From: a virus | IMG/VR virus record: IMGVR_UViG_3300035703_000049 | Span: 1 to 64,000 of that record | DNA: 64,000 bases | Strand: one strand, 5' to 3' | Part shown: positions 3,130 through 19,524 of the stretch, piece after piece | Layout: the number at the start of each line of letters is the position of its first letter | Numbering within the stretch: the stretch's first letter is position 1 | Translations under genes and position numbers: made by a program | The notes under the pieces: generated by a model | What the model was told of the DNA's origin: nothing | Database searches by the model: none | Seen by the model: the letters and a program-made list of their open reading frames with translations, nothing else

Positions 3130-4150
3130 AATTAAACTATTTCAACTAGATCGTTTATGGAAAGAAGTTCATCTTGATTTAACTCGCCTTGCAGCCGCAG
3201 AAATGAAAAAAGGGTTTGCTCAAAAAGGTCCTTTTGTAGAAAAATTAGAAAATCGCATTGCAGAATACTTTGATAGAAAACATTGTATTACAACCGCATC
3301 ATGTACTGATGCATTGTATATAGGAGTGACCGCATTAGGTCTTCCATCACATTCTAGAATAGCAGTTAACAACTATACCTTTGTTGCTAGTGCTCATGCA
3401 ATTAGAAAAGCAGGACATATACCAGTCCCAATTGATATCGATGATCGCTATTCCATGAATATCGAACTAATAAACAATTGCGATGCTGCAATTGTTGTTG
3501 ATCTATTTGGAAATATGAGTCCTTTACCATATATACCAACTATAGTAGATGCCGCACAAAGTTTTGAAAGTATGGAAGATTGCATCACTAGTGCAAATAG
3601 AGGAAAAATTGCTTGCGTTAGCTTTTCTCCAACCAAAACTATTTCAAGTTGGGGCAGCGGCGGAGCAATATTAACAGACGATGATGACATAGCAGAAAAA
3701 TGCTATAGATTAAGGTTACACGGTAAACTTAAAAACAGCGATGATGCTATCGAAGCTGGCAGTAACAGTATGATAAGTGTTTTTGAAGCTGCTGCGATTT
3801 GGACTGGAATGAATAAAATGCATCGTTGGCGAGATCGTCGAGATTTAATTGCACGATATATAGCTAAAGAAAGCAGTTACGAGTGTGGAATCGATTTAAG
3901 TCAAGATAGACATACACATAGCAAATTAGTTTTTACATCTAAAGATGCACCTGCTATAATTAAAAAACTAAATGATGAAAATATTGAAGCGTGTTTAACG
4001 TATTCAAGACTTATAAGTGAGGAAACGTTATACAAAAATAATAACGATTATCCAAACAGTGTAAGATTAAGGAACACAACATTTACAGTTCCAAATCAAC
4101 ATACACTAACCGATGATGAAGTAGAAAGGATTGCAAAGGCATTGAAATGA
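3119..4150 (+). CDS. DegT/DnrJ/EryC1-type PLP-dependent sugar aminotransferase
   Basis: This family transfers an amino group to keto-nucleotide sugars. It has 343 residues, with the fold-type I pattern: an early SCTDALYIG segment at residues 61-69 for cofactor phosphate binding, VDAAQSFE with D144 contacting the PLP ring nitrogen, and SFSPTKTISSWGSGG with K173 as the likely Schiff-base lysine. It lies between a PIG-L-type deacetylase and an extended SDR, all overlapping, a grouping typical of amino-sugar synthesis. The product probably decorates a glycan; the substrate is inferred only at the class level. Confidence 0.88.
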   Translation: MSDRIKLFQLDRLWKEVHLDLTRLAAAEMKKGFAQKGPFVEKLENRIAEYFDRKHCITTASCTDALYIGVTALGLPSHSRIAVNNYTFVASAHAIRKAGHIPVPIDIDDRYSMNIELINNCDAAIVVDLFGNMSPLPYIPTIVDAAQSFESMEDCITSANRGKIACVSFSPTKTISSWGSGGAILTDDDDIAEKCYRLRLHGKLKNSDDAIEAGSNSMISVFEAAAIWTGMNKMHRWRDRRDLIARYIAKESSYECGIDLSQDRHTHSKLVFTSKDAPAIIKKLNDENIEACLTYSRLISEETLYKNNNDYPNSVRLRNTTFTVPNQHTLTDDEVERIAKALK

Positions 4151-5112
4151 GAATTTTAGTTTGTGGCGGACATGGATTTATTGGAAACAATATCACATAT
4201 AAACTAATGCAGCAAGGACATGATGTTGCTGTAGTGGATAATCATAATAACTACGGTGAAACCCCAAATTGGGAATACAATTCTGTTATGTCATCTAGAT
4301 TAAATCATATTGGAACTCACACTTTTTATACAGTGGACGTTACATCTGCTGTCGCGTTAGATAATATCTTTAAAAAATGTAATCCTGAAATAGTAATTTA
4401 TCTTGCAACTTACCCAAATGCACGAATGGTTAAGCGTAATGTAGTTGATGCTACGCATAATATGGTTGGTGCTGTTGCCACTACTCTTGATCTATGTGTA
4501 AAGTATAAAATTAAACGTTTTGTAATGGCAAGCAGCAGCATGGTTTATGGTGATTTTGGCGAAGCTGCCCCGGTTGAAACTATCAACTGCAACCCACTTA
4601 CGCTTTATGGTAGCTATAAGCTACAAGGCGAGCAAATGTGTAAGATATGGCACAAAGAACATGGTCTTGAATACACATTGTTAAGACCAAGTGCCATTTA
4701 CGGTGTACGTGATGTTATAGTACGTGCCATTTCTAAAATGACTGTAAACGCACTAACAACAAAAACTATTAAAGTTATTGGTGTTAACAATCGTTTGGAC
4801 TTTACGTGGGTTGAAGATGTTGCAGATGGTTTTATTACAGCAGCATTTGCACCAGAGGCAGCAAATGAAATTTACAACTGCACAAGAGGTTATGGACGAA
4901 GTTTACGAGAAGCTGCTGAATTAGTTGCACGTCGAGTACCAGCAGAAATTATCGAACTACCTGCAGATAACTTTTATCCAAATCGTGATACCCTTAACAG
5001 CGACAAGCTTAAAGCACTTGGTTGGAATCCTAGTGTTGATATTGAAGAAGGCGTCAATCGTTATTTAGATTGGTTCTTAGCTCAACCTTTTATTGATAAG
5101 TTGAAACCATAA
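4147..5112 (+). CDS. Extended SDR NAD-dependent epimerase/dehydratase
   Basis: The N-terminus carries a Rossmann glycine motif (GGHGFIG, residues 7-13) with D31 ending beta-2. A catalytic triad is visible as S131 region SSSMVYG, Y154 and K158 in YGSYK. The 321-residue length fits UDP-sugar epimerases and dehydratases of the GalE/WcaG type. It shares ATGA with the aminotransferase before it and is the last gene of the plus-strand run. Its stop lies inside the end of the convergent minus-strand gene, a 31-base tail-to-tail coding overlap with no terminator visible between them. Confidence 0.88.
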   Translation: MRILVCGGHGFIGNNITYKLMQQGHDVAVVDNHNNYGETPNWEYNSVMSSRLNHIGTHTFYTVDVTSAVALDNIFKKCNPEIVIYLATYPNARMVKRNVVDATHNMVGAVATTLDLCVKYKIKRFVMASSSMVYGDFGEAAPVETINCNPLTLYGSYKLQGEQMCKIWHKEHGLEYTLLRPSAIYGVRDVIVRAISKMTVNALTTKTIKVIGVNNRLDFTWVEDVADGFITAAFAPEAANEIYNCTRGYGRSLREAAELVARRVPAEIIELPADNFYPNRDTLNSDKLKALGWNPSVDIEEGVNRYLDWFLAQPFIDKLKP

Positions 5113-6389
5113 AGAGAATAATAGTAATCCTCTAACCATTTCCAATCAAAACTTAATTGCAATTTATCTAAAGCGCCATTAACACTGTTATAGTAGTTGA
5201 TGGCGTCTTTTGCACCTTGTAAGCAATACTCAGCATTATCACCTTCAGCATATGTTAACCAAACATGCAATCTATGTTGTATTTCTATGTCAGTCCCTGC
5301 ATCAACTTCTTGTTTCAGTTTTAACACTTCCCTAAAAGCACTACGCCATGTTATCCAAGGATCTGTATTAAATCTAGATATACTTGCACAAATTGGTATA
5401 ACTGCATGAGCGGAACTTAATGTAAAATCAATACCTGGGTTAGTATCAAGCACTAATTGTTTATTATATAAATTGATATTCATTGCACCGTATTCTAATC
5501 CATTTAAAGGATTGCGACTATGAAAAATGTAATGCTTTGGTTCTTGCCAATAGTCTGGACTAAAATCAAACTTAAAACTAGATAATACTTCTGTTTTAGC
5601 AAATACAGCAAAGAACCATGGTGTATCGCTTAACATTGCTGCTGCTTTATAAGCAGCTTCTCGCCCAGTTATTCCATCACTGCGTTTTGCTCTTGGACAT
5701 AACGTTTTTAGATTATTCCAATTTGTTTCTGCTATTGGTTCATTATTGGAAATAAAAATAACATCGCTAAGTGTATTGTCTATTATTTGTTTCTTTTCAA
5801 GATATGGATAATCATATACTTGTTTTTGTAAGTAAGTTTTAACGTCTCTTGGCACTAAAGAAACTCTATTATCATTGCTTATTCCGTAAGCAATACGTTT
5901 ATGCCATAAATTAGGTTCAATATTTGTAGTACCGTTTAATGACAAATACAATGAGGGGAAATTAGCATTTATAATTTCTTGTGTTATATTTTCTGTAGTA
6001 GTGTTAATAACTGGCCAAGGTAATCTCTGTACACCGTTACTATGCCAATTAATATCATTATACCATTCTAATAATTCAACATTTTCCTGTTTCTTAAATT
6101 CTTTTACATTAACTAAAAATGTATCACCAAACTTTTGATTACCGCTTGCCCAACAATGTATTTGCTTTTGTTCCCACGGTGTTGGAATGTAATTAAAATC
6201 AAAGTTAGCGTAATCACAGCAACTAGAAATAAGCCAAAAGAATTCTGTACGTGATCTGTTTGAAGCACGTTTTACCATTTCTAGATGTGTAGTCATATAA
6301 CGCATAGTTTGGGCATGTGGCAGCTTCGACAATATCTGCTTAACGTTTTCATCATGTCCACCCATATCCATTATAAACACATCAAACAT
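5082..6389 (-). CDS. Two-domain glycosyltransferase-like protein lacking DxD
   Basis: The C-terminal domain (about residues 208-435) is homologous to the protein at 16347-17258: both have an opening (F/Y)(I/L)S..EP, then PRAKRSDGITG versus PWAKRVDGVKG, AAYKAAA versus AAHKAAA, and a later WR(S/A)(A/G)FRE. The N-terminal domain (about 1-165) is a weaker copy of the same unit, visible in the pair FDFNYIPTPWEQ and FKFDFSPDYWQE. Where the relative has VDGDN, this protein has FAKTE (domain 2) and SSCCD (domain 1), so both copies lack the metal-binding DxD. It may be a non-catalytic partner. It is the last gene of the minus-strand operon and overlaps its neighbour by 8 bases. Confidence 0.65.
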   Translation of the reverse strand: MFDVFIMDMGGHDENVKQILSKLPHAQTMRYMTTHLEMVKRASNRSRTEFFWLISSCCDYANFDFNYIPTPWEQKQIHCWASGNQKFGDTFLVNVKEFKKQENVELLEWYNDINWHSNGVQRLPWPVINTTTENITQEIINANFPSLYLSLNGTTNIEPNLWHKRIAYGISNDNRVSLVPRDVKTYLQKQVYDYPYLEKKQIIDNTLSDVIFISNNEPIAETNWNNLKTLCPRAKRSDGITGREAAYKAAAMLSDTPWFFAVFAKTEVLSSFKFDFSPDYWQEPKHYIFHSRNPLNGLEYGAMNINLYNKQLVLDTNPGIDFTLSSAHAVIPICASISRFNTDPWITWRSAFREVLKLKQEVDAGTDIEIQHRLHVWLTYAEGDNAEYCLQGAKDAINYYNSVNGALDKLQLSFDWKWLEDYYYSLYGFNLSIKG

Positions 6390-7542
6390 TTGAACTGTGC
6401 CTGTATCCTGGTTGCAAGAACTTTATTTGCTGCTCACGCCAATCCCAATCTGACCAATGATAGTCGTATGTTGCGCTTACATCATCTACTTCTATCTTGT
6501 ATATGTCTAAGTAATCCCCCATACGATCAATAATGTATTGGAAATCTTTAGTACCAAAGCTACCTTGCAAATCAACTTGACCAAGTGGCAAGTAGCCTAA
6601 ACTTAACTCAGCATTATTAGGTGTATATCCGTTTACACGTAACCATGTATCAAAACCATACATTTCATCACGATGCCATTGATCATGTCGTGTTACACTG
6701 CGTCCCCACTCAATGTCAAACTCACCTGAATAGTACTGTAACTCTGTAATTGCATCGCATGTAGTCTTATCTATTCTAGGTGCGCCCTCGTCTCGATATA
6801 CTTCGTAAAGTGTTTTACCAATTTGACACCAATGCATATAAACACCGCCAAATTCTCTATCGTATTGATTAATGTTAAACAACTCTCTGTCTGACGTTGT
6901 TAAGTTGTAGCGAGGTGCGCTTAACCATGTAGTAATTTGACTTGGCCGTATCCAATTTGGATCAAATGCCTTTTTACGTTGGCTTAAGCATAAGCTTTCT
7001 ACCTCATGGCATAAGTTGTTTAGTTGTCTTATTGCCCACTTAGCATCATCAGTTGCATGTTTATAATAAGGACTTAATTGCTCAACAGTACCTTGCAATA
7101 TTTCAAAGTGATTATGCAGCTTATTCATAATACCGTGCTTTAATGCAAGAGAAAGGGCTAACTCTTCTCTAATACCTTTTGCATACAATTCTTCTGTCAT
7201 CCCCATACCATATACATTGGGGAAACGAACAGCATCAGGCGTAAAGTGTTCCTCAATAACATATGGGTCTAAACCTGCATTTATCCAAGTACTTTGCACA
7301 TGCGGCATGTTTATAGCTTGTATATTACGATTAAGTTCATTACACAAATAAACTAATGTACGTGGACTATTTGGCCAACCATGCCAACAGTAATTCTTTT
7401 CTAATATGTTGCCGCTAGTTAGTAATTCCTTTAAAGCAACTATCCATTTGTGTGATAACTCGTGATCTAGTGAAAAAATGTTATAATCAATTGTATGACC
7501 TGTTCTATAGTCTCGCAATACTACTTTTACTTTAGATGGCAT
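6382..7542 (-). CDS. Unknown conserved protein in the radical-SAM operon (386 aa)
   Basis: I do not recognise a family. The protein is rich in His, Trp and Tyr. Its middle part (about 120-220) looks all-helical, and the C-terminal part has several acidic/aromatic stretches such as HWSDWDWREQQ near residue 366. There is no signal peptide, membrane segment or classical cysteine cluster. It overlaps the radical-SAM gene upstream by 11 bases and the GT-like gene downstream by 8, so it is co-translated with them. Its position suggests a partner or substrate-handling protein of the cassette; that is inference only. Confidence 0.6.
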   Translation of the reverse strand: MPSKVKVVLRDYRTGHTIDYNIFSLDHELSHKWIVALKELLTSGNILEKNYCWHGWPNSPRTLVYLCNELNRNIQAINMPHVQSTWINAGLDPYVIEEHFTPDAVRFPNVYGMGMTEELYAKGIREELALSLALKHGIMNKLHNHFEILQGTVEQLSPYYKHATDDAKWAIRQLNNLCHEVESLCLSQRKKAFDPNWIRPSQITTWLSAPRYNLTTSDRELFNINQYDREFGGVYMHWCQIGKTLYEVYRDEGAPRIDKTTCDAITELQYYSGEFDIEWGRSVTRHDQWHRDEMYGFDTWLRVNGYTPNNAELSLGYLPLGQVDLQGSFGTKDFQYIIDRMGDYLDIYKIEVDDVSATYDYHWSDWDWREQQIKFLQPGYRHSSNV

Positions 7543-8845
7543 CCCACCATTCCTTTATTTTTGGTATGAAAGATAGTGCGTCACTCATAGTGAAACTATC
7601 GCCGCGCCTTTTTTCAAGTTCTAATATTCTAGCTTTACCTTGCCATAATCCAATTATGTATTGCTCAGGCCACTGCTCTTGAAAAGTTGGTCGTTTAAGT
7701 AAATTCTCTAACGTATCAATTAATGAACCGTGTCGCTTATATCTTAGTTCTAAATCACTTATCCAATACTCAACCAGATCTGTTAGTAATGGGCGAGGCA
7801 GCGCAAGCGGACTCATAATAATGTCTGAAGTAAATGCAAACACTACTTTAGTTAGGATATCTACACTATACTGATCTGCAAACCTAACATAATCATTAAG
7901 TACCATCATACCCGGTAACGTAAGTGTTAAATCTAAACGTAATTGTCGTGGGTGTGTTACATATTTTGATCCTATACTAAGATTGTGAGAAAATACATCA
8001 AAATTTAATCCAGTACGTATGTATTCACCAACTGGACCTGTAGCATCTAAACTTGCACATACTTGCCAATCCTTAAAGTATGACAATAGTTCAAACAAAC
8101 ACACAGATTTTGAATGATCTTTGCTTATATGCTCTGTGTGCCAAACACTATGTAAGTTAGTGTTATATCGTACATAAACATTTTTACTAATACCATGTTT
8201 AACCATGTACTTCATCATTTCCCAATGCTCTGGCCAGTCCAACGGTTCTCCACCAACCCAATATATTTCCTCTATGCGTTCTTCTTTAATAGCACGCCAT
8301 AGTTCTTCAATAGCTACTGTCCGCTGAAACTGGGTAATTTGCCTTCTAACGTTTGACACAGCCCATGGATTATCTTGTTCAAAGTTTGTATTGTGTTGAC
8401 GTTCTTCGCTTTCCCATGCACTGCTTAATGGTGGCCCGCACATACGACATTTAAATGTGCATAAGTTAGATATGCGATAATCATAACTTATAGGTAATCC
8501 TTTGTGTGTGCCATCTGGTAGTGTTTGTGCAAGCAGTTGTTCACGCTTGCTACCAAACATTCCTTCAAAGTAATCTCTATATACGCTAGTGTTTAACAGC
8601 TTCTTGTTGCACACTTCACATTCAGGCAGTTCTTCACCCGCCATCATGCGTTTACGAACACTTTTCATGTGATTGCTGTTCCAATGTTCCTCTAGCGTAG
8701 TTGGACGATATTCATTCGTGCCTGCACTTGTGTCTATGTATTGTTTAAAGTTCTGTGCCGGTTCGCGACTTGCACAGCACAAACGCCTTTCAGTTTGTGG
8801 AGATAGATATGTGTGAGTCCAAGGTGCTAAACAATGCTTATTCAT
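7532..8845 (-). CDS. Radical SAM protein with N-terminal twitch-like domain (copy 1)
   Basis: Radical SAM enzymes cut S-adenosylmethionine at a 4Fe-4S cluster to make a 5'-deoxyadenosyl radical. The cluster motif CxxxCxxC is at C129, C133 and C136. Before it lies a cysteine domain with CLAPW (C5), CC (C23, C24) and CEVC (C76, C79), matching the N-terminal twitch/SPASM-like arrangement that can bind an auxiliary Fe-S cluster. WVGGEPL follows as the GGE SAM-binding motif. A later block reads DATGPVGEYIRTG, shared in pattern with its paralogues. It overlaps the SGNH gene upstream by 8 bases. Family assignment is secure; the substrate is unknown. Confidence 0.88.
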   Translation of the reverse strand: MNKHCLAPWTHTYLSPQTERRLCCASREPAQNFKQYIDTSAGTNEYRPTTLEEHWNSNHMKSVRKRMMAGEELPECEVCNKKLLNTSVYRDYFEGMFGSKREQLLAQTLPDGTHKGLPISYDYRISNLCTFKCRMCGPPLSSAWESEERQHNTNFEQDNPWAVSNVRRQITQFQRTVAIEELWRAIKEERIEEIYWVGGEPLDWPEHWEMMKYMVKHGISKNVYVRYNTNLHSVWHTEHISKDHSKSVCLFELLSYFKDWQVCASLDATGPVGEYIRTGLNFDVFSHNLSIGSKYVTHPRQLRLDLTLTLPGMMVLNDYVRFADQYSVDILTKVVFAFTSDIIMSPLALPRPLLTDLVEYWISDLELRYKRHGSLIDTLENLLKRPTFQEQWPEQYIIGLWQGKARILELEKRRGDSFTMSDALSFIPKIKEWWDAI

Positions 8846-9401
8846 CTGCTATAGGAAATTCTTTATCTAAAGATATAATTTTGGCAACCCAAGTATGCCA
8901 TAACGGCGCATAGTGAGTCTTAGTTTTATTTAATGGCCATCTATCCGGATAATCTATGTAAGGATGCAAATCATAAAATGACATATGTGTTAATGATACA
9001 TTATACTTTGCACAAATATCTTTCATTTTTTGAACTTGATTCTTAAAATTTTGTAAGCACCAATTTTCATCATATTTTTCCATCAAGTTAATTCTATCTT
9101 TTGTAGTAGGAAGTATTTGTCGAAATCCATTTTGCTCTTTAAGTTCAAATCTTCTCCAATTAGGCCATAACACATAAATTTTATTTGGTTTATAGTGAGG
9201 AATGATTTCCTCACTCATTCTTACAAGTTGATCTGCGGAGGATCCTCTAATTCCTAAATTTATTAAATTTAATAATGCAGGCCATGCTTCGTGTTCCTCA
9301 ACTCCCCATCCCCATGTATGACTATCACCAATTGCAAAATTTTTATCTTCAATTGGAAATTGCCTAGTATTGTAGTTGAAAATCATATTATTAAATTCCA
9401 A
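8838..9401 (-). CDS. SGNH/GDSL-like hydrolase (187 aa)
   Basis: SGNH enzymes are serine esterases or acetyl-hydrolases, often acting on acylated sugars. Block I is seen as FAIGDSHTWG with the nucleophile S27, block II as the glycine in NLGIRGSS (G50-G53), block III as PNW with N81, and a C-terminal histidine near H163 in THYAP. The Asp normally three residues before that His is not evident, so activity is uncertain. It lies between two radical-SAM genes with overlaps of 19 and 8 bases. It could remove or add an acyl group on the product of the cassette. Confidence 0.65.
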   Translation of the reverse strand: MEFNNMIFNYNTRQFPIEDKNFAIGDSHTWGWGVEEHEAWPALLNLINLGIRGSSADQLVRMSEEIIPHYKPNKIYVLWPNWRRFELKEQNGFRQILPTTKDRINLMEKYDENWCLQNFKNQVQKMKDICAKYNVSLTHMSFYDLHPYIDYPDRWPLNKTKTHYAPLWHTWVAKIISLDKEFPIADE

Positions 9402-10525
9402 ATTTCTAAATGACTATCAGAAAATGATTGTTTCCTATATTCATCACTTTTTAAAATTCGTTCTTTAAAAATAGATAACATATTTTTCCCTGGAAGTTCC
9501 ATAAATTTAATAACAGAGTTAATTTTATTTTTATTTTGGCATTGCTTCATACGTTCACTGTAAATATATTTTACATTGTCTGGTAAGTTACGCAAGTTAA
9601 ACATTGGTGGTTCATGCAAGATATTATAATGTATATCAGTTATACCTTGCTCGAGAATCCAAGCTTCTGTTTCAGGCCAATAGTAAGAATTTTGAATATT
9701 AAATGTAGTACAAACTTGTAACTTATAAGAACTATCGATTGCTTTACGTATCACTTCTTGTGTTTCATTCCATCTAGCACCGTACCTTTGATATTCAAAA
9801 CGTTTACCAGTATCATCAATACTAAAAGCTATTTCAACTTTTTTGAAGTGTTTCCAAAGATTATTTCGTACCGGCCATATTGTTCCATTAGTATTATAAT
9901 GTATATCAATTTTAGAAGAATACCCTTTTTCAACTAATTTTTCTAATAAATCAAAATGTTCATTAATTAAAAATGGTTCGCCCCCTGTAAATTCTAAATA
10001 TTCAATATGTGGCAACGCATCTTCAAGTGCTTCCCACCAACTAGGTATCTTACGAGGCCATTGACCTTGCTTTAGTTGCTGTAATGCAAGTTCATTATTT
10101 CCATTAGCAATATCAATTTCTTCTTGAGCCCACTTACTACTACTCCAACTACCACATATACGACATTTTAAATTACAAATGTTTCCAAGTTTTAGATCTA
10201 GAAAAATGGGAGTTACATCTGTTTCCTTATATCTAATTTTTACATCTTTTAGTTTAACAAATGTAGCTTTACGTTTGCTCATTCTTCCAATAATTGATTC
10301 TTCTTGCCAACACATGTTACATCCTTTTGGTTTTTCACCTGCTAGAAATTGTTGACGCAAGTTCCTCATATAATCGCTATGTTGTGCATCATGAATAGAA
10401 TGTCCGTTATGAACACTAATTCCAGGTATACTTTCATTATATAAGCAACATGGGCGATAAGTTCCCATTGGTGTAACTTCCATACTTACCCATGGCAGCA
10501 TACAAATAGTTTTAGGCGTATCCAC
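9383..10525 (-). CDS. Radical SAM protein with N-terminal twitch-like domain (copy 2)
   Basis: The radical-SAM motif CNLKCRIC has C117, C121 and C124. The upstream cysteine domain has CMLPW (C8), CC (C26, C27) and CNMC (C69, C72), like copies 1 and 3. FTGGEPF provides the GGE motif, and DDTGKRFEYQRYG matches the shared post-GGE block. At 380 residues it is the shortest of the five twitch-type paralogues, being shorter at both ends. It overlaps the next radical-SAM gene upstream by 14 bases. The substrate cannot be deduced. Confidence 0.88.
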   Translation of the reverse strand: MDTPKTICMLPWVSMEVTPMGTYRPCCLYNESIPGISVHNGHSIHDAQHSDYMRNLRQQFLAGEKPKGCNMCWQEESIIGRMSKRKATFVKLKDVKIRYKETDVTPIFLDLKLGNICNLKCRICGSWSSSKWAQEEIDIANGNNELALQQLKQGQWPRKIPSWWEALEDALPHIEYLEFTGGEPFLINEHFDLLEKLVEKGYSSKIDIHYNTNGTIWPVRNNLWKHFKKVEIAFSIDDTGKRFEYQRYGARWNETQEVIRKAIDSSYKLQVCTTFNIQNSYYWPETEAWILEQGITDIHYNILHEPPMFNLRNLPDNVKYIYSERMKQCQNKNKINSVIKFMELPGKNMLSIFKERILKSDEYRKQSFSDSHLEIWNLII

Positions 10526-11822
10526 GCAAATCTCCGTATTCTAGAAATACATCCTCAAACTTTTCCTTACGAAGAGAATCTAATTGATCTGTAATTAAGA
10601 AAAATTGTTTGAGAGTATTGCTGTTATCATTACTGTTTATAAAATTAATTAATCCTTGATACCCGCTAGTTGCCCGTGTTAAGTGATCTTTATCTTTTAA
10701 CCATTCTAGTGTGCTTTGTATTTTAGAGATAGCAATATCTTTATACTTCTTTGGTAGTATATCTGATCTATAATACAATGGACTATGTAGAATGTTTATA
10801 TTAAAATCTTGTGCTTTGATAAACCCGCGTTCTGTCCAATCTCTATGAAAATCCGTAATGTGTAACAAATTAAAAACATTAACAGTTGCACTTATATAGA
10901 AATCTACGTTAGGACAAATTTGCAACATCTCTTTACGGTTATCCTCAATGTCTGTCCATATTGTACCTTTACGCATATATTCAGCACGCGAACCCATCGC
11001 ATCTAAACTAGCACCAACACTAACGCTGTCAAATTTTTTCCACCACTCTAATACGTTTTGTTTTTTAAACTTAAGTTCACTGAAGTTAGTATTGTATATC
11101 AAACGAACATTTGTACGATTGTTTTCCACTAACCACTTAAGCAGCTTGTAATGCTCTTCCATAATAAGAGGCTCGCCGCCAGCAAAATAAATTTGTTCAA
11201 TGTATGGAAGATGTGGTTGCATTTGTTCCCAAATGTCATCTTTATTTTTACCAGCATGTAAAAACTTGTTATGTCCTATTTTTTCAACACCGTATAATGC
11301 GGCTTTGTCTTCCCACCAATTGCTGCTAAAATTAGGTCCGCAATAACGACATTTAAAGTTACATATGTTGCTAAAGCGAACGTCCCAATACCTTATCTTA
11401 AATTTTGGATTAGTGCCATCTTCTGTTGTTGCACTTACATCTTTAATATGATGACCAAAGTGTTTGTTACTGCTGTTACGCATACTAAACAATCCAACTT
11501 TTTCATCATCATAGCAGCGTTTGCATTCAGCACAAGGTTTATCTTGTAACATATTGCGTCTTACAGTTTTATACTGCTCGTTATTCCAAACAGTTTCCAT
11601 TGAATCTTTTTGAAGATTACCAACTGGTATATTTGACATACAACATAAAAAAGCTTCGCCTGTTGGCCAACCATGCATATGCAACCAAGGCAACATACAA
11701 AAATGTTTGCTTTCAATTAAGTTGTATTTTTCTTCTTCGCTTAAATCATCTAATGAGATATTGATAGGAATACGAGAACCATAGTTATAAGTTTCGTAGT
11801 ACTTTTTTATTTCATCACTCAT
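10512..11822 (-). CDS. Radical SAM protein with N-terminal twitch-like domain (copy 3)
   Basis: The start is placed at 11822 because this ATG overlaps the upstream stop as ATGA; the frame stays open 10 codons further. Radical-SAM cysteines are C154, C158 and C161 in CNFKCRYCGP. Auxiliary cysteines are C42 (CMLPW), C60/C61, and a CxxCxxC run C97, C100, C103. FAGGEPL is the GGE motif, and DAMGSRAEYMRKG is the shared downstream block. Before the cysteine domain it has about 40 extra residues, acidic and with a YNYGSRIP stretch, not present in copies 1 and 2. It belongs with them to the CC subgroup. Confidence 0.88.
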   Translation of the reverse strand: MSDEIKKYYETYNYGSRIPINISLDDLSEEEKYNLIESKHFCMLPWLHMHGWPTGEAFLCCMSNIPVGNLQKDSMETVWNNEQYKTVRRNMLQDKPCAECKRCYDDEKVGLFSMRNSSNKHFGHHIKDVSATTEDGTNPKFKIRYWDVRFSNICNFKCRYCGPNFSSNWWEDKAALYGVEKIGHNKFLHAGKNKDDIWEQMQPHLPYIEQIYFAGGEPLIMEEHYKLLKWLVENNRTNVRLIYNTNFSELKFKKQNVLEWWKKFDSVSVGASLDAMGSRAEYMRKGTIWTDIEDNRKEMLQICPNVDFYISATVNVFNLLHITDFHRDWTERGFIKAQDFNINILHSPLYYRSDILPKKYKDIAISKIQSTLEWLKDKDHLTRATSGYQGLINFINSNDNSNTLKQFFLITDQLDSLRKEKFEDVFLEYGDLRGYA

Positions 11823-13141
11823 ATATCTAACCATTCTGCAATTTCTGGACAAGATGCTTTGACATCTTTCGTGCGACGACTATCATATTGCCTTAAAAAG
11901 TTTTTTAAATCTATTTTTAATTTATCAGTTGGGCTTGCACCATCATGTGCTACTGTTACTGTTCTTAGATAGTTAGCTAGTCTCGCTACGTGGTCTTTTT
12001 CCATATTGTGTAGCAATTCATGACCATTTTCATCTAGCCAACGCTCTAGAGAACGAGCAGCTTGATATCGCATACCTTCTGGTAATACTGTTACGCTTTG
12101 AAAACTTGGGAAACGTAATATGTTTAACGTAAAAGTTAAACTATCACGTCCATATAGTTGCTTAAAATACAAACACCAATCTAAGAAATTAGTAATTTCC
12201 ATAATACTTAATACACTTGGTGTGCCCATAACATGTAACCCACGTAGCTTTGCTTCTTTAACTAATCGATGCATATTGTTGGTCCACTGTTCCCAATCCA
12301 TGCCGTCACGTATATATTCAGCTCTATGTGCTATTGCTTCTGCACTTGTATAAATGTCTAACGCTTCAACATCATGACTTAATTGTATTAGTTTATCGAT
12401 AAGTTCTGTCTTTGCACATAAGTTAGTATTGATTGCTAACCGCGTCTTGCTCTTTCCTTTATTTGCTTTATACCAATCAACAAGTCGCCATGTCTCTGAG
12501 GACATAAGCGGTTCTCCCCCGGTAATTCGTAATTCGTCGAGGGTTGCATGGAGGTTTGATTCCCACCATTTGAAGAATGCTTCGACATACGGATTTGTCT
12601 CTCCAATCTTATATAACTGGCTACCGTTATGATTATGAGTGAAATGGTTCCTACCATCGGTAACCAAGTCTGTATATGGTCCATTGTTGTTTATATCCTT
12701 TGCCCATGTTGTTGAAAATGCTGGATTACAATAGCTACACGCAAAGTTGCAAGTGCGGTCAAAGCTGATCTCAAGCGTTTTAAGATTAACGTCCTGCTCG
12801 TACGGCATTTGACTAGCATATAGTAAATCTGTCTGGTTATAAATTTTACTTTTATATACGCGATCGCTTATTGTTCCAGCATCCTCTAGTTTCCAACAAT
12901 ACTCACAACCTGATGGGCGTTTGCCTAGTTGCATTTGTTGGCGCTGTTGTTTCTTTTCGATTGTGTTATGTATAGCACTTGGATTGTTTTTAATTGTATC
13001 CAAATTAATCTTATGAGCTGGCGGATGATGACAGCTTGTAGTCATTCCACTACCTAACCAAATAGTAGCGTTGTACCACTTAGCTGCACAAAAACTTGGA
13101 CTTATTTCATCTAATATCTTTTTAGTCTCTTCATTATCCAT
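11819..13141 (-). CDS. Radical SAM protein with variant N-terminal domain (copy 4)
   Basis: The start at 13141 is chosen because it gives an 8-base overlap with the gene upstream; the frame is open for 28 more codons. Radical-SAM cysteines are C131, C135 and C138 in CNFACSYCNP. The N-terminal cysteine domain differs from copies 1-3: CAAKW (C18) is followed by SCHHPPAH (C37, H38, H39) instead of a CC pair, then CEYC (C79, C82). ITGGEPL is the GGE motif, and EAIAHRAEYIRDG the shared block. NPSAIHNT and ISDRVYKS are nearly identical in copy 5, so the two form a second subgroup with possible Cys/His ligation of an auxiliary cluster. Confidence 0.88.
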   Translation of the reverse strand: MDNEETKKILDEISPSFCAAKWYNATIWLGSGMTTSCHHPPAHKINLDTIKNNPSAIHNTIEKKQQRQQMQLGKRPSGCEYCWKLEDAGTISDRVYKSKIYNQTDLLYASQMPYEQDVNLKTLEISFDRTCNFACSYCNPAFSTTWAKDINNNGPYTDLVTDGRNHFTHNHNGSQLYKIGETNPYVEAFFKWWESNLHATLDELRITGGEPLMSSETWRLVDWYKANKGKSKTRLAINTNLCAKTELIDKLIQLSHDVEALDIYTSAEAIAHRAEYIRDGMDWEQWTNNMHRLVKEAKLRGLHVMGTPSVLSIMEITNFLDWCLYFKQLYGRDSLTFTLNILRFPSFQSVTVLPEGMRYQAARSLERWLDENGHELLHNMEKDHVARLANYLRTVTVAHDGASPTDKLKIDLKNFLRQYDSRRTKDVKASCPEIAEWLDI

Positions 13142-13553
13142 GTAATATTGCCATATCTCTTGATAGTATAAACAATGGTTTTTGAATTTTAAATTTAAAT
13201 ACACCCTTAAACGCCATAAATCCACCAGTACCGGTTATGATTTGATTGTCATTTGTAGTGTATGTACCAAGTTCATCTATTTCAGGCCAAAAATCAAAAC
13301 CTCTATGGTCTATACGTTTAATTATCACTGCTAAATCTTCAATAATTTGTCCGTTTACAACTTTAGTATCATTTCGTTCTTTATTTAGAAATTCAATATC
13401 AAAACAACGATTTTGTAACGTAAGTATAAATGGGATGACAGTTCGTTCTTTTAAATCAATTGTTTGACTTTGATCTGATGTTGTAATTTTAATTAATGGA
13501 CATTTATTAGGCAAACAAATTGGTTCTAAAGTAATTTCAATTTTTTCACCCAT
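13134..13553 (-). CDS. Beta-rich hypothetical protein, related to the 60028 gene
   Basis: A 139-residue protein with alternating hydrophobic strands and no catalytic motif that I recognise. It resembles the protein at 60028-60495: both begin with a short beta stretch followed by CP or PCC and (I/L)xKI or CKII, contain NGQIIED/NGKIIRD, continue with a strand ending GFDF/YDFENLIW, and finish with a (T/G)GxGGF or GPNGSF turn before an aromatic strand. Both sit between carbohydrate or radical enzyme genes. A small beta-sandwich module that binds or carries the modified substrate is possible but not shown. It overlaps its neighbours by 8 bases on each side. Confidence 0.55.
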   Translation of the reverse strand: MGEKIEITLEPICLPNKCPLIKITTSDQSQTIDLKERTVIPFILTLQNRCFDIEFLNKERNDTKVVNGQIIEDLAVIIKRIDHRGFDFWPEIDELGTYTTNDNQIITGTGGFMAFKGVFKFKIQKPLFILSRDMAILHG

Positions 13554-15006
13554 GTATGCCTCCTTGATTGTTTATCATCTTCATGTGTCCATCGACCATA
13601 TTTTCAAAATCACTAATGAAATCTAATTCCTTGCACAGCTCAACTAATCGCTTAAAGCGTTCAGCTCTTACATTGAAAGTGTTTTCGGGATACTTGTTAC
13701 TTACCCAATTATAAGTTTGGTATCCGTTAACTATATGCTGTTCTATTTCTAATTCCTCAAGCATCTTAGGACTAGTTGATGGCGTGCCATCAAGTAACTG
13801 AAATACCCCAGTTGGAATAATTTGAAGCATTTGATCTTTAGCTAAATGTTTATATTTCTTTATGAGATTAAGAGTGTCCTCATAATCTTGTTCTGTCTCA
13901 GTTGGATACCCTACAAACATAAACCAACTTTGTTTAATATTATTATTAAACAATTGATACGTACAATAATCAATATCAGCATTACTAAACTTTTTACCCA
14001 TGTGATCTCGTACTGATTCGCTACCGCTTTCAATTCCTATCTGCACACGATAAGCGCCACCTTTTGCCATTAATTTGAAATCATTTTTAGGCATTTGATT
14101 TTGAGGACGACAAATAAGTTGTCCTCTGTATTTTATAGTATATGGAATTTCTTCTGCTAGTTTTGTGTTCATAGCACGTAATTCTTTAGTATTGCCATTA
14201 ATCAAACTATCAGTAAATCTAAAATATTTAAAGTTATAGTTCTTATAATAATGTATCAATTCTTCTGCAACTCTTGTACCATTTCTATAACGAAATTTTG
14301 GCCAGTGTTTTCCTATATCACAAAACGTACATTTACGTACACATCCTTTACTAGCTGTAATTGGTATAGCAAAGTATTCATCATCAAGATCATGCATATA
14401 AGAACTAAGATTATAATCACTAAAGTCAGGTAGTGGGACTACATCTAGTTCGTTATTTGTTAACTGTGGTATTTGTACAACACCTGTTAAATTGTTTTTA
14501 ATTACATCAACAATTGCTTTTTCGCCTTCACCAAGAACAACCACATCTGCAATACCAGAATCAAGCATAAGTTGATACCAATTGCTTTGCCATTGTGATT
14601 GATATACATTTGTTCCTTGACCACCTAGTACAATTTTCTTAGCAGGGTTTTCTTGCTTAATAAAATACGCTAAATCCTCTGCTGCACGCTGACTATCTTT
14701 AGTAAACACGCTAATACCAATATAAGGAATATTTGTTTGTGCTATTACTTTTGCATGTTGATGCATCCAATCTTTATAGTTTTCCCATTCAGTAATATTT
14801 GGTTTTGATATAGGATGTTGCATCCAAGCAATAATTGAATCCGTACTTATCTTAGAGTTAATGAAATCAATATTTAAATCCAATGCTTTAGCGTTAATGC
14901 CGTGTTGCGCTAAACACGCTTTTAATAAAGGCGCGGCCATTGGAGGATTAGTATTAAACATGTATGGAACATGAACTAAAAGTATATCGTGTATTAAGTT
15001 AGGCAT
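13546..15006 (-). CDS. B12-binding-type radical SAM protein
   Basis: Architecture matches the cobalamin-binding radical SAM group: an N-terminal Rossmann-like domain (VHVPYMFNTN, AAPLLKACLAQHGI, then IVLGGQGTN near residue 127) and a radical SAM domain with KGCVRKCTFCDIG (C222, C226, C229). The classical DxHxxG cobalamin motif is not visible, so B12 use is unproven. QIGIESGSE near residue 325 is typical of the family. The ATG at 15006 overlaps the upstream stop by 8 bases; an ATG 24 bases earlier is also possible. It lies among the twitch-type radical-SAM genes and may act on the same product, for example as a methylase or C-C bond enzyme. Confidence 0.85.
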   Translation of the reverse strand: MPNLIHDILLVHVPYMFNTNPPMAAPLLKACLAQHGINAKALDLNIDFINSKISTDSIIAWMQHPISKPNITEWENYKDWMHQHAKVIAQTNIPYIGISVFTKDSQRAAEDLAYFIKQENPAKKIVLGGQGTNVYQSQWQSNWYQLMLDSGIADVVVLGEGEKAIVDVIKNNLTGVVQIPQLTNNELDVVPLPDFSDYNLSSYMHDLDDEYFAIPITASKGCVRKCTFCDIGKHWPKFRYRNGTRVAEELIHYYKNYNFKYFRFTDSLINGNTKELRAMNTKLAEEIPYTIKYRGQLICRPQNQMPKNDFKLMAKGGAYRVQIGIESGSESVRDHMGKKFSNADIDYCTYQLFNNNIKQSWFMFVGYPTETEQDYEDTLNLIKKYKHLAKDQMLQIIPTGVFQLLDGTPSTSPKMLEELEIEQHIVNGYQTYNWVSNKYPENTFNVRAERFKRLVELCKELDFISDFENMVDGHMKMINNQGGIHG

Positions 15007-16357
15007 TTTCTGTCCAATATTTACAATCATCCCAAAACATTTTCATTTCTGGAAACGTATTAAGAAAATTTAAACGGTGTCTTTTATCATGCTCGCTAAA
15101 AAATCTATAAAAGTCCGCTTTTAGCTTTTTATCATCATTGTGCTGTTTCATCATAGCTATAACACGATTCATACGTTGAACTTCATAGTCCTTAAATCCT
15201 TCTAGTTCCTTCATTGGAGTAGCCTGCATCCAGTCTCGGACTTGTTCAAGCTTCCACGCATATGCTTCTGGAAGTATTTGTAAGCTTTGCCAACTTGGAC
15301 TACGCAACAAAGGCGTGTCAAACCACACACGTTGATAACTGAAACTGTGCTTGATACGTAACTGCAATATCCACTCAAGCAATTCTTGTATACCAGGTAC
15401 CACTAAATTATTCATTGTAATGATAAATGTAAGACTATTACGACCTGGTATTTCAGTTAGAAAACGTTCAACATTATTTTGCAACTTCTTAAACTGCAAT
15501 CCAGGTCTAATATACTCCGCTTGATCTCCCCAAGTATCAACACTTACATACTGCATAAAATGCTCTACGTTCTCACCATCACAAATCTTTTTTACATAAT
15601 CAAGATAATGATTAAATAATCCATCATCGACACTAAAGTTTGATGTTACATTTAGGTGTAGATCTGGTTTAGGATTTTCCAATACATAATTAAAAACACG
15701 GTAAGTATTTTTATCAAGTATAGGTTCACCACCAGTCATACGGAAATGTTTTAGTTTCGGATACAAGTCTGGCCACCAACGCCAAAATGCTTCTACATAA
15801 GGGTTAAACTCCCTATTAGGTATTACACGTCTACGACCTTGGAAATGTTCGGGAGCATTATGAGGTACGGAAGTTGGATATGCCCCATACCGTTCTGCCT
15901 GTGCGGCCCATGTGGTGCTAAATTGCGGACTGCAATAACTACAAGCAAGATTACACGCATTACTAAAATTGACTTCAACGTAGTTTGGAATCTCATCTAC
16001 GGTAAACGGTTGATTACGAATTCTATCAAGATGGATAGCAGCCCAAGGCTCGCCGCTACGATAATGCCGGTCACTAAGGTTACCAGTCCGCTCGATATTC
16101 CAACAATAATTACATTCGTCACACTTAATTCCATTAAGCATTTCCTTTCTACGTTCTTTTTTATAAGGCGTGTTGTGCAAAGCACTAGGGTTAGAATCTA
16201 ATAAACTTGCATCAATTTCATGCAGTGGTGGGTGATAACAACTGTTGGTTAATCCGTTAGTTAGATGAAGACTAACTTGTTGCCACTTAGCAAGACACAA
16301 TGCATCACCAAGTTCTGCTTTCATCTTTTCTGCATCATTTAAAAAATCACTGCCCAT
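14999..16357 (-). CDS. Radical SAM protein with variant N-terminal domain (copy 5)
   Basis: Radical-SAM cysteines are C135, C139 and C142 in CNLACSYCSP. The N-terminal domain has CLAKW (C21), SCYHPPLH (C40, H42) and CDECNYC (C79, C82, C85). The second-subgroup signature NPSALHNT and LSDRHYRS matches copy 4 nearly residue for residue, so the two probably arose by duplication. MTGGEPI is the GGE motif, and DTWGDQAEYIRPG the shared block. At 452 residues it is the longest twitch-type copy. It overlaps the GT-like gene upstream by 11 bases. The substrate is unknown. Confidence 0.88.
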   Translation of the reverse strand: MGSDFLNDAEKMKAELGDALCLAKWQQVSLHLTNGLTNSCYHPPLHEIDASLLDSNPSALHNTPYKKERRKEMLNGIKCDECNYCWNIERTGNLSDRHYRSGEPWAAIHLDRIRNQPFTVDEIPNYVEVNFSNACNLACSYCSPQFSTTWAAQAERYGAYPTSVPHNAPEHFQGRRRVIPNREFNPYVEAFWRWWPDLYPKLKHFRMTGGEPILDKNTYRVFNYVLENPKPDLHLNVTSNFSVDDGLFNHYLDYVKKICDGENVEHFMQYVSVDTWGDQAEYIRPGLQFKKLQNNVERFLTEIPGRNSLTFIITMNNLVVPGIQELLEWILQLRIKHSFSYQRVWFDTPLLRSPSWQSLQILPEAYAWKLEQVRDWMQATPMKELEGFKDYEVQRMNRVIAMMKQHNDDKKLKADFYRFFSEHDKRHRLNFLNTFPEMKMFWDDCKYWTENA

Positions 16358-17258
16358 CTAATATCATTATACCTTTGTTTTTATGCGGGGTTGCATACTT
16401 TTTAAAAAAACTACTAAAATTTGAATCATCATAGATGATATCTAAACCAAGCTTTATACTAAGTTGATCACCAAAAAATTCAAAATCTCTAGCTTCAACA
16501 TATTCATGGTGTATTAAATGATCGTTAAAAACTTTCTTTAATTCATCAAAATCATGTACTAACTTGTGATCCCAATTATCAAACATAGTCAAGTGTGTTC
16601 CCATGCGAGCACCTAACATTGCCCAATCTCCGTATTCAACATCACTTCCAATGTTATGCCATATGCTTAAATTACGCATGTTGCCAAGACTTACTCTTGT
16701 TTGGAAATCCATTAAGCTTGGTTTAACTCCTCGATCTAAGCACATCTTAACACCTTCACGAAAACCAGCACGCCATGCATGATAAGGAGATTGATTTGGA
16801 TATGTTTTGCTCCACACATCATTCATTGCTATATACCCATCGTTCCAACAAAATTCAACTGCTGTATGATCTTCACCCAAGCTTGCTTCATGGGTACGCA
16901 TATTGTTTATGAACGTTTTAGTCCAACAACTTAAACCGCCATTGCCGTATGTAAGTCCATTTATAATATTGTAAGCTTTCCAACGGAAAACATAATTTTT
17001 ATTAGTTTCATTTAATATTAATTGCTGATCAAAAAATTTTGGTTCAGGAAAGTTATCCCCATCAACTAAAACAAAACGTTCAGTATCGCTTGCTGCGGCT
17101 GCTGCTTTATGCGCTGCATCGCTGCCCTTGACTCCATCTACACGTTTAGCCCACGGAACCATAGCAGATATTTTAGCCCAAAATTCTTCTTTTCGAGGTT
17201 CATCATATGACAAATAAATGCAGTCTAAATCTGCAATATCAACTATCTCTTCTTTCAT
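16347..17258 (-). CDS. GT-A-like glycosyltransferase with DxD motif
   Basis: The N-terminus starts with an I(Y/F)LSYDEP strand-loop, then PWAKRVDGVKG, a KAAAAASD helix and FVLVDGDNF with D66-G-D68, which fits the metal-binding DxD of GT-A nucleotide-sugar transferases. A second half with WRAGFREGVKM and HNIGSDVEYG is shared with the protein at 5082-6389. The ATG at 17258 is preferred because GAGG is spaced five bases upstream; an ATG at 17273 is also possible. This is the only member of the pair with an intact DxD, so it is the likely active enzyme. Donor and acceptor are unknown. Confidence 0.7.
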   Translation of the reverse strand: MKEEIVDIADLDCIYLSYDEPRKEEFWAKISAMVPWAKRVDGVKGSDAAHKAAAAASDTERFVLVDGDNFPEPKFFDQQLILNETNKNYVFRWKAYNIINGLTYGNGGLSCWTKTFINNMRTHEASLGEDHTAVEFCWNDGYIAMNDVWSKTYPNQSPYHAWRAGFREGVKMCLDRGVKPSLMDFQTRVSLGNMRNLSIWHNIGSDVEYGDWAMLGARMGTHLTMFDNWDHKLVHDFDELKKVFNDHLIHHEYVEARDFEFFGDQLSIKLGLDIIYDDSNFSSFFKKYATPHKNKGIMILDGQ

Positions 17259-17580
17259 CCCATCCTCGTTCATTACCTATAATAAGCATATTACCTTTTG
17301 TAGTGTACCAAGTTGTACCTTCAACTAATGGTAACTTTTTTAAACGTATTCTTGGTATTTCTTCTAATTTTCCGTTAACAACTTTTAATTTTTTATGTTG
17401 TATATTTTGATTATATTGTTCTCTAGTTATTTCTATCCAAGGTTTATCAGTATCTTCAAATGTCCAACCATCAACTATATTGGTATCAGGATCATACGTT
17501 AATTTTATAACTATTGGTTTTGATACAGGCGCTTTATATTCAGCTAGAGCTTGTAACAAATTTTTGGTAGTTTCGTTCAT
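17239..17580 (-). CDS. Hypothetical protein of the radical-SAM/GT operon (113 aa)
   Basis: I do not recognise a function. The coding part starts at about 17580 (MNETTKNLL); ATG codons at 17592-17595 and one at 17655 are alternatives, but the last would add a hydrophobic stretch encoded inside the upstream gene. The body contains short predicted beta strands (PIVIKLTYD, KLKVVNGKLEEI) and a WIEITREQY segment like those in many small phage structural or accessory proteins. It overlaps both neighbouring glycosyltransferase-like genes, so it belongs to the same transcript. Confidence 0.5.
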   Translation of the reverse strand: MNETTKNLLQALAEYKAPVSKPIVIKLTYDPDTNIVDGWTFEDTDKPWIEITREQYNQNIQHKKLKVVNGKLEEIPRIRLKKLPLVEGTTWYTTKGNMLIIGNERGWDERRDS

Positions 17581-18394
17581 ATTCTCTAATGACATCATCT
17601 GTAATCCAATCTTTATGATGATAATGTAAAGGTAATCTTTGTTTGTAATGACCAATTAAAGGAACATGTTCATCCCATTCTGTAAAAAGTTGTTCATACC
17701 AAAGTTGCTGTTCGCTAAAACCCCATAAACCTTCTTTGCCGTGTACAAAAGTTGGAATTGATATTGGTAACGTTACATTTTGCATACCATAAATTCTTGC
17801 TGCTATTGCAAATACTTCATCAATTCTAACTCTCATATCTTCATTTTTAATTAAAAATTCTTTAGCAAACCAATTCCATTCGTTAATAATAAGTCTTATA
17901 ACGAAGAAAAATTCGCTTGCTAATTCACTATATCTAAAATACATAAACCCCGCATAAACATCAGGTAAATTGTTTACATCAAATAGTTTTCTGTGTTTTC
18001 TACTTGTAATTATGTTTTCTCTAAAATCCTTAACTTCAGTAGTTAAACAAACGTCGCGCAATCGCATTGCATTCCACCAATGATCTATTGAATGAGTTAA
18101 TAAAATATCAGCTTCAATTAATACTGTTTCTCGCCATGGTGTCAATGCAAATGCTCTGTAATATTGTGTCATATCCCAATCTTGTGGAGTATAATCTACT
18201 ACAATGACTTTATCAAAAACTTTTAAAAATTGAGGATTATTGTCTGCTGATACTTTATCTACAATTACAGCACAGTTATTAATTTTTTGAGTAAATTTAA
18301 TACTCATTGCTTGAACATACGCAAGTCTCAAATACTTTTCACCTAGTGCGAATGTTAAGTAACCTTGATCTTTTTGAAATTCACGCTGTGGCAT
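17540..18394 (-). CDS. GT8-like glycosyltransferase (284 aa)
   Basis: The pattern fits GT-A enzymes of the GT8 kind: an N-terminal YLTFALGEKYLRLA strand-helix, a helix with Y(Q/R)AFALTPW, then VLIEADILLTHS, where E94-A-D96 replaces the usual DxD. DVYAGFMYFR near residue 146 and HYHHKDW near residue 258 resemble the acceptor and C-terminal histidine regions of that family. The incomplete DxD may still bind metal through D96. The start shares a 14-base overlap with the upstream GT-like gene. The sugar donor cannot be named. Confidence 0.6.
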   Translation of the reverse strand: MPQREFQKDQGYLTFALGEKYLRLAYVQAMSIKFTQKINNCAVIVDKVSADNNPQFLKVFDKVIVVDYTPQDWDMTQYYRAFALTPWRETVLIEADILLTHSIDHWWNAMRLRDVCLTTEVKDFRENIITSRKHRKLFDVNNLPDVYAGFMYFRYSELASEFFFVIRLIINEWNWFAKEFLIKNEDMRVRIDEVFAIAARIYGMQNVTLPISIPTFVHGKEGLWGFSEQQLWYEQLFTEWDEHVPLIGHYKQRLPLHYHHKDWITDDVIREYERNYQKFVTSSS

Positions 18395-19217
18395 TATTCA
18401 ACCTTAATTGATTCATTAAGTTTGTGTCAATCGCGTAGTTTTTATTCATTATATGTAAATCATAGTTCCATAACACTGTTTCATTATCAATAGTTAAAGC
18501 CCAATGATTGGAATTATCTAATCGTGTAACGTGACCATTAACGGGTAAATTCCAAAGACCCATATTATCGTAAGTTGGAACGTTATGTAAATGACAAGCA
18601 ATACTAAAAGCTAAATCGTTTCTATATACATGTTGTGGCATGCCACACATTAACGCATAAAAAGGATAATTATCTCTCACCATTTTAGCAGTATCAAAAA
18701 TAACTTTTGACTCCATGCTATGATCATAACAAATAGCCGTTGCCCAGCGTTGTATTATATCATTGCTAGGTAAATAATCATCTAATTCCATACCAGCAGA
18801 GTTTAAGTTATATGATTTATTAAAGATACAAAAATGCGAATCAATCTTTAACCATTCCTCTAATTGATTTGAAACAATCATATAATCAGCATCTAACAAT
18901 AAAACTCTATCTGCCCACCCATAAGTATATTGAAAAACATCGATTCTTAAATCATTTTTCCATTCGTATTGAATTAAGTCGTTCCCGGCTCTTACATGTC
19001 TTTGAGAAATTTTTGTTGGTTCAGCAAATAAAATTTTAGAAAAAATTGGATATTTTTCTGCTGCAAAAATATCGTTAGTTAGTATAAATGTATCTAATCC
19101 CAAATAATACTTTACTCGTTCTGCTGCTATACTAGCTAAAGCTATATAATCTATTTCTTTACCATCAACTGTTATAGAATTATTGGCTGCGATTACACAA
19201 ATTTTACTCAAGGACAT
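18381..19217 (-). CDS. GT8-like glycosyltransferase (278 aa)
   Basis: Residues 1-50 form a likely Rossmann-like start (ICVIAANNS, AAERVKYYLGLDTFILTND). VLLLDADYMIVS holds a complete DxD at D109 and D111, with the flanking hydrophobic strand and the following turn typical of GT-A enzymes. HWALTIDN near residue 237 and WNYDLH near residue 250 could belong to the C-terminal donor-binding part. Length is normal for a small GT8-type enzyme. It sits one gene after the operon promoter and overlaps both neighbours by 14 bases. Confidence 0.65.
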   Translation of the reverse strand: MSLSKICVIAANNSITVDGKEIDYIALASIAAERVKYYLGLDTFILTNDIFAAEKYPIFSKILFAEPTKISQRHVRAGNDLIQYEWKNDLRIDVFQYTYGWADRVLLLDADYMIVSNQLEEWLKIDSHFCIFNKSYNLNSAGMELDDYLPSNDIIQRWATAICYDHSMESKVIFDTAKMVRDNYPFYALMCGMPQHVYRNDLAFSIACHLHNVPTYDNMGLWNLPVNGHVTRLDNSNHWALTIDNETVLWNYDLHIMNKNYAIDTNLMNQLRLNNATA

Positions 19218-19524
19218 GTCTAATTGTCCTTACTTTAGCTAATTGATTGTATTCAATTAACCAATCATTTAGAACTTCTTGGTATCGAGCTTTTGATATA
19301 TCTAACAACTCTTTGGTATTCACTTTTCTTGGAATTTTATTACTATCAAGTAGAATAATCTCATCTTGATTTTGAAATGAATAAAGCAAACAAATTAATT
19401 CTGTATTACAAACCCAAAGCCCATTGGAGTAAGAAACAACTAGTCTGCTTAATTGTTTTTCTTCTAACATTTTTTGAGTCAAAGTTCTATTATAAGAAGT
19501 TTTAGCTAATTCTTGAATATCCAT
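19204..19524 (-). CDS. Small protein, first gene of the radical-SAM operon (106 aa)
   Basis: The function is unknown. It is mostly helical, with a central beta stretch (LVVSYSNGLWVCNTELICLLY) of modest hydrophobicity that is not a clear membrane helix, then a KIPRKV(N)TKELLDISKARYQEVL segment typical of small phage proteins. The ATG lies exactly six bases downstream of a perfect TATAAT box, and no Shine-Dalgarno can exist between them, so the mRNA is predicted to be leaderless. As the first gene of a 14.4-kb operon of radical-SAM and GT genes, it could have a regulatory or scaffold role. Confidence 0.6.
   Translation of the reverse strand: MDIQELAKTSYNRTLTQKMLEEKQLSRLVVSYSNGLWVCNTELICLLYSFQNQDEIILLDSNKIPRKVNTKELLDISKARYQEVLNDWLIEYNQLAKVRTIRHVLE

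Follow-up and report, generated by a model that had tools for sequence, protein, structure and literature searches.

An ordered array of five N-twitch radical SAM enzymes is the core of a conserved, putatively biosynthetic module in jumbo T4-like phages

We analysed a 64,000-nucleotide stretch of viral DNA (hereafter, the window), which is positions 1 to 64,000 of the 88,151-base IMG/VR record IMGVR_UViG_3300035703_000049. An original prediction, made from the sequence of this window, had described a cassette of six radical S-adenosylmethionine (SAM) enzymes at 7532-16357. All six open reading frames exist at the coordinates given, on the minus strand. The cassette extends beyond what was described and also takes in 16347-19217 and 5082-7542. 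Rather than being peculiar to the window phage, the cassette forms the centre of a putative biosynthetic module, g4-g3-g1-E-D-C-B-A-u ... g2, which a lineage of jumbo T4-like phages has conserved in fixed order; the arrangement recurs in more than a hundred uncultured giant phages. Here A to E are five paralogous radical SAM enzymes, g1, g3 and g4 are glycosyltransferase-like genes, u encodes a conserved protein that closes the array, and g2 lies at the module end. Tentatively, we favour reading the module as a multi-step glycan-tailoring line, one that probably decorates the fibres of the virion.

A gene-neighbourhood comparison, which the original prediction had proposed as a check, was made by fetching relatives of the genes at 10512 (C) and 14999 (E) from IMG/VR and comparing the genes of these 152 contigs with those of the window. 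The recurring string begins with the fibre-region genes f3-f2-f1, continues with t1, g4, g3, g1, E, D, C, B, A and u, and has g2 further on. Among the 84 contigs that span g1 to u, the array reads EDCBA in 77, EDCA in four, EDCCBA in two and EDDCBA in one; g1 precedes E in almost every contig. Because these 84 contigs had been retrieved with C or E as the query, a second test was anchored on u. This gave 79 further loci, and the array was present in all 61 that have at least 6.5 kb upstream. When g1 served as the anchor, most loci read EDCBAu, or a part of it truncated by the end of the contig or locus. Three g1 phages with u that seemed to lack the array (L406, L408 and L411) turned out to carry divergent N-twitch genes. 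The "EDCA" phages were likewise rejected as B-less, as the cases examined hold long C genes that are C-B fusions. C-B fusions were found in ten loci and an E-D fusion in one (L395), with both CxxxCxxC sites retained in either kind.

A PF04055 scan of the whole record returned six radical-SAM domains, five above the curated cut-off and that of D slightly below it. The search against radical-SAM family models gave exactly five matches to NF033640 (N_Twi_rSAM, N-twitch radical SAM) in the record, with E-values of 1e-81 to 1e-126, and these five are the paralogues of the cassette. They cover nearly the whole model and exceed its cut-off of 170 bits: E (14999-16357, first in the array) scored 320.9 bits, D (11819-13225) 310.7, C (10512-11852) 416.6, B (9383-10525) 334.2 and A (7532-8845, last in the array) 268.5. 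The true start of D is probably internal, past the stop of the gene at 13134-13553. E is the most conserved member of the array, with about 63% identity in most relatives, which are encoded by 363 viral stretches. The other four paralogues are merely 24-30% identical to C, so we regard the five enzymes as old paralogues and not as recent duplications. NF033640 is one general model, whereas the window holds representatives of five orthologous clades, ordered and syntenic with the glycosyltransferase-like genes and u. A tree of 115 proteins places the array members in clades A, B, C, D and E, most of them well supported, with some weak deep branches; bacterial sequences are sisters or members of most of these clades. 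A sequence search of solved structures returned nothing beyond general radical SAM matches.

The motifs described in the original prediction were largely borne out. All five paralogues have CxxxCxxC, an N-terminal cysteine domain and a GGE motif, present as GGEP. The C.(A/L)PW motif and CC pair are seen in A, B and C (the CC subtype), while C(H/Y)HPP, NPSA(I/L)HNT and SDR.Y(K/R)S are seen in D and E. Within the block G..(A/G/F)EY.R.G, said to be kept by all five, EY.R.G is invariant, but D lacks the first G (AHRAEYIRDG). Loss of the cysteine motifs in close relatives, which had been named as evidence that would count against the prediction, was not seen: every clade retains CxxxCxxC and the auxiliary cysteines at 99-100% (100-133 sequences per clade; 104 for A). 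The invariant cysteines of E are C21, C40, C82, C85, C135, C139 and C142. D and E have four auxiliary cysteines arranged as C ... C ... CxxC (C46, C65, C107 and C110 in D), and A, B and C have one further cysteine, the second of the CC pair, at a position where D and E have H or Y. This difference, taken earlier to mark two kinds of auxiliary domain, is smaller than had been suggested: the cysteine count puts both on the single-cluster side, and all five are best read as single-cluster twitch enzymes. The four conserved auxiliary cysteines are present in the twitch domain of each, which is predicted to carry an auxiliary Fe-S cluster. A CX12-13GX4C spacing is typical for SPASM/twitch domains; as read from the sequence, it fits B, C, D and E, and the glycine is missing in A. 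The N-terminus of C also matches the SPASM domain PF13186 at 1.7e-10.

The virus record probably represents part of a larger genome, that of a jumbo T4-like phage. Its capsid protein (L007:10804-12003) has 66% identity to the capsids of the jumbo phages PA5oct and Phosso. A pelagimyophage identity was considered and dropped, as the capsid search gave it no support and the nearest relatives were PA5oct/Phosso-type jumbo phages. Ten large contigs of 275-354 kb that carry the array, in its usual or a divergent form, were scanned with NF033640 and held 7-21 matches each. Nine of them had a capsid match: it was full-length, at 76-81%, in eight and confined to a partial gene at the contig end in the ninth. 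IscU is encoded by all nine EDCBA-type jumbo contigs (G010-G018, ~ 320-354 kb) and SAM synthetase by two of the nine, and IscA adjoins IscU in one tested jumbo contig. That IscU is absent from the window's own record is uninformative, since the record is a fragment. Examples of IscU, IscA and SAM synthetase genes in this jumbo lineage lie at G011:C1:291412-291783, G015:C1:31720-32127 and L430:3407-4103. Around the additional radical SAM genes dispersed through three jumbo genomes, no single recurring partner was found among the matches listed. A host could not be taken from membership in metagenome-assembled genomes: contigs with the phage cassette (L169-L172) fall in Pelagibacter, Verrucomicrobia, Rickettsiales and Betaproteobacteria bins, labels that are mutually inconsistent, and they are probably mis-binned phage.

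The partners of the array, all on the minus strand like the array itself, begin with g1 (16347-17273), directly before E. Its DxD-type motif, D71-G72-D73-N74 (DGDN), is invariant in 21 aligned sequences. The predicted model of g1 (predicted local distance difference test score, pLDDT, 85.4) had RmlT as its best Foldseek match (E 4.9e-4), followed by SunS, WrtF and TarS, with E-values of 5e-4 to 1e-2 and low TM-scores of about 0.3. The best structural matches are GT-A transferases, nucleotidyltransferases or related nucleotide-sugar folds, and the model suggests that g1 may be a GT-A-like glycosyltransferase. Two putative glycosyltransferases lie further upstream, g3 (17540-18394; DxD-like motif LIEADILL; 128 of 152 contigs) and g4 (18381-19217; motif LLLDADYM; 129 of 152). 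At the other end, the array is closed by u (6382-7542), a protein of 386 amino acids that is tied to the array and has a confident predicted model (pLDDT 90.7). This model has no fold match in PDB (best E 1.1) and nine significant matches in BFVD, all of them uncharacterised phage proteins; relatives of u occur in at least 524 viral stretches. The protein g2 (5082-6389) is made of degenerate GT-A-like modules. Of 61 loci, 59 have it downstream of u, and its length ranges from 402 to 1341 amino acids between phages. Long g2 homologues (L300:16845-20870 and L290:15180-18239) are built of such modules in repeat.

Several smaller or structural genes complete the string. t2 (17239-17655) encodes a small protein in the slot between g3 and g1, where it has homologues, and t1 (19204-19524) a conserved protein of 106 amino acids between the fibre genes and g4 (103 of 152 contigs); neither has a family match. 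Beyond t1 are f1 (19564-20472), a fibre-like protein with a conserved pattern at the tail end of the virion operon (110 of 152 contigs), the tail-fibre protein f2 (20486-21961; phrog_19602 tail fiber, 2.4e-13) and f3 (22024-22683), a conserved virion-region protein whose counterparts at the same position in phages Atu_ph07 and Phosso share 57-58% identity with it.

Other genes are inserted variably into the array. The sixth protein of the predicted cassette, V (13546-15030, between E and D), is a probable B12-type radical SAM protein, with a PF04055 match of 5e-18 (66 bits) and a PF02310 score of 27.0 bits, below the cut-off of 32.1. Its score against TIGR03975, a C-methyltransferase model for ribosomally synthesised and post-translationally modified peptides (RiPPs), was 112.8 bits, short of the cut-off of 281.85. 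Homologues of V were found in just 8 of the 152 contigs, so it was rejected as a core member and is an occasional insert; a pattern scan of viral contigs for its close relatives found none. Beside it lies x (13134-13553), a protein of 139 amino acids with no family match, found in one of 152 contigs. An SGNH/GDSL-like gene (8838-9401; weak PF13472 match, E 0.022) sits between B and A and was found in 7 of 152 contigs; SGNH-like genes recur as array inserts. These three inserts are also on the minus strand. A family scan of 98 array-insert proteins gave radical SAM, GDSL, NAD-epimerase, DegT, cytidylyltransferase, carbamoyltransferase, galactosyltransferase, UDP-glucose dehydrogenase and mannose-P isomerase types. 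A separate insert family of 134 members, ~ 350 amino acids long and without a Pfam match, lies mostly between E and D or between g1 and E (L074:7649-8710, L133:11349-12416, L138:12393-13547), and its TEK..RPI..PF motif may resemble one of GT10 fucosyltransferases.

Counterparts of the array are chromosomal in bacteria. Nine bacterial genomes, mostly Bdellovibrionota (G001-G009), hold 4-33 NF033640 matches each. On a chromosomal contig of Bacteriovoracaceae UBA6144 (L174), relatives of D, A, C, B, E and D stand in one run amid housekeeping genes. Homologues of g1 adjoin N-twitch radical SAM genes in several bacterial genomes, Bdellovibrionota among them, and in an Oligoflexia protein (L258:16386-18293) a radical SAM/SPASM domain is fused to a C-terminal g1 (GT-A-like) domain.

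The original prediction had proposed serial radical modifications of a glycan or peptide made with the neighbouring glycosyltransferases. Serial action finds indirect support in the gene order, the fusions, the linkage to glycosyltransferase-like genes and the bacterial fusion of radical SAM and GT-A domains. Taken with the invariant clusters and the IscU of relatives, the fixed order and the fusions of neighbours speak for a functional array whose members act in series. A glycan is favoured as the substrate because of the GT-A-like partner g1, the bacterial fusion and the sugar-type inserts. We infer that GT-A-type transferases (g1, probably with g3 and g4) would build or extend a short glycan, on which the five non-redundant twitch radical SAM enzymes would then act one after another. 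Each enzyme would generate a 5'-deoxyadenosyl radical from SAM and, with one auxiliary Fe-S cluster, carry out its own redox-neutral or oxidative reaction, with epimerisation, dehydrogenation, deoxygenation and C-C/C-X bond formation as candidates. Optional inserted enzymes of the B12 radical SAM, SGNH, epimerase, aminotransferase and carbamoyltransferase types may add phage-specific decorations. Since the module carries on the virion operon directly past the tail-fibre genes, the carrier would most likely be a fibre or baseplate of the phage itself, and a host surface glycan would come second.

Some observations weigh against a glycan-tailoring line. SPASM/twitch enzymes act most often on peptides, and members of the A, C, D and E clades can be grouped in Bdellovibrionota where no g1 is present (L174, L226). 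No Pfam match was found for g3, whose glycosyltransferase label comes from its motif only, and no significant family match for g4, with a weak GT2 match in one homologue only. The inserted genes could also be ordinary cargo of a hypervariable region. Finally, by analogy, the cultured phages Atu_ph07 (Agrobacterium) and Phosso (Sinorhizobium) may favour a protein substrate. They carry several radical SAM genes in the same slot, after a giant virion gene and a fibre gene, and there the neighbouring protein has a Cys-His-rich, peptide-like tail.

This last resemblance is the main reason why direct maturation of a virion protein stays the strongest alternative, although we consider it rather unlikely. 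Under this explanation, the enzymes would crosslink, epimerise or hydroxylate residues of a tail-fibre, baseplate or g2 protein in a RiPP-like change of a structural protein, and the glycosyltransferases would glycosylate the modified residues. It would suit an array that succeeds fibre genes on the same strand, the N-terminal SPASM-like domain, and a g2 protein that is built of repeats, varies in length and lies at the module end. The Atu_ph07 and Phosso cassettes differ from the window array in that their enzymes are not N-twitch but have C-terminal SPASM domains and are DynA/PapB/DarE-like. They adjoin a virion-region protein of ~ 300 amino acids (Atu_ph07 gp170, L423:23062-23952; Phosso 289, L424:22351-23271) that ends in CHSSCHASCHNSRSRR or CHTSCHASCHSSRSRR, and a RiPP-like modification of a phage protein is possible in these cultured jumbo phages, judging from sequence. 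The CHxSCHxS motif was found in a credible gene only in these two phages, and no plausible gene in the window or the EDCBA contigs has CHxSCH. A hidden precursor peptide was sought and rejected, as neighbouring genes of the module overlap or almost abut and no conserved core-peptide motif occurs in f1, f2, t1 or t2; a large protein may still be the substrate. No match to a RiPP recognition element or PqqD was found in ten neighbours (Pfam, E<=1) or in the maturases (0.001), and the inserts of the array are sugar-type enzymes.

It is improbable that the array instead alters the O-antigen or another envelope glycan of the host, excluding superinfecting phages. Such exclusion by envelope-glycan change has been proposed for pelagimyophage glycosyltransferases (PMC7029224), and GT-A-like, epimerase, aminotransferase and deacetylase genes are nearby in the window, but the position in the virion operon, with late expression expected, speaks against it, and no transport or lipid-carrier gene was seen in the core. 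A small diffusible metabolite or cofactor, rather than a polymer-bound product, is very unlikely: a bacterial relative in Paenibacillus (L187) sits among what read as acyl carrier protein/ketosynthase-type genes, but the core has no carrier protein, export or resistance gene, and fibre genes adjoin it. T4-like phages glycosylate DNA and the window encodes ThyA and DHFR (1189-2509), but hypermodification of DNA bases with glycosylation is the least credible explanation, as the array sits in the tail region and not near replication genes, Bdellovibrionota carry these clades on their chromosomes, and no DNA-modification partner was seen.

The original prediction held a multi-enzyme radical SAM set to be unusual in a tailed phage, which the literature contradicts (PMC5332604, PMC7029224). 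In PMC5332604, radical SAM genes number 12 in the T4-like environmental genome TARA_ERS488813_N000010, and genes for IscU or A-type carriers occur in such genomes, a likeness to the window phage and its relatives. That paper counts genes, and its main text reports no ordered array, glycosyltransferase linkage, fusions or bacterial counterparts. The host-recognition cluster of pelagimyophages also resembles the window in that its variable tail-fibre region holds radical SAM cassettes together with GT8 genes, but that cluster is hypervariable, while the radical SAM order is fixed in the window lineage (PMC7029224). The cultured Vibrio phage K566 has a GT8 and a GT4-like gene alongside three N-twitch radical SAM genes, of which two exceed the 170-bit cut-off and one reaches 154 bits, a pairing in line with a glycan substrate. 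KVP40 has distant relatives, 25% identical to the K566 enzyme. Compared with the window, the enzymes of K566 and KVP40 show 20-25% identity, fewer copies and a different genome position. A tblastn search for E, g1 and u in cultured phages found none. Multi-radical-SAM sets in T4-like phages were thus already known; no earlier description of this ordered module was found in open-licence PubMed Central papers on twitch radical SAM in phages, jumbo phages or Bdellovibrio.

Radical SAM enzymes are oxygen-sensitive and costly. This lineage keeps five of them in a fixed order, with catalytic and cluster motifs intact and with up to about 20 copies per genome, alongside IscU, and the product is therefore likely to be important to infection. 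A more specific proposal, which we regard as rather doubtful, is that a five-enzyme radical assembly line, in a jumbo lineage with its own Fe-S scaffold, makes a novel radical-modified glycoconjugate on the virion. If this were true, the same clades in Bdellovibrionota chromosomes would point to a surface chemistry shared by phages and predatory bacteria. If a virion glycan is the product, it would add a new layer to the way in which phages and hosts recognise each other and would be a source of novel enzymes. The order, the fusions, the glycosyltransferase linkage and u, which has no known fold, form a concrete set for joint study, and the Bdellovibrionota clades offer a second, chromosomal route to the same chemistry.

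Away from the module, the window holds sugar and nucleotide genes at 1189-5112 and 52710-60050, comprising DHFR, ThyA, a PIG-L deacetylase, a DegT aminotransferase and three NAD-epimerase genes. A long collagen-like protein with GYTGSIGYTGS repeats was observed at the end of the record (L008:7549-9150; G000 86549-88150).

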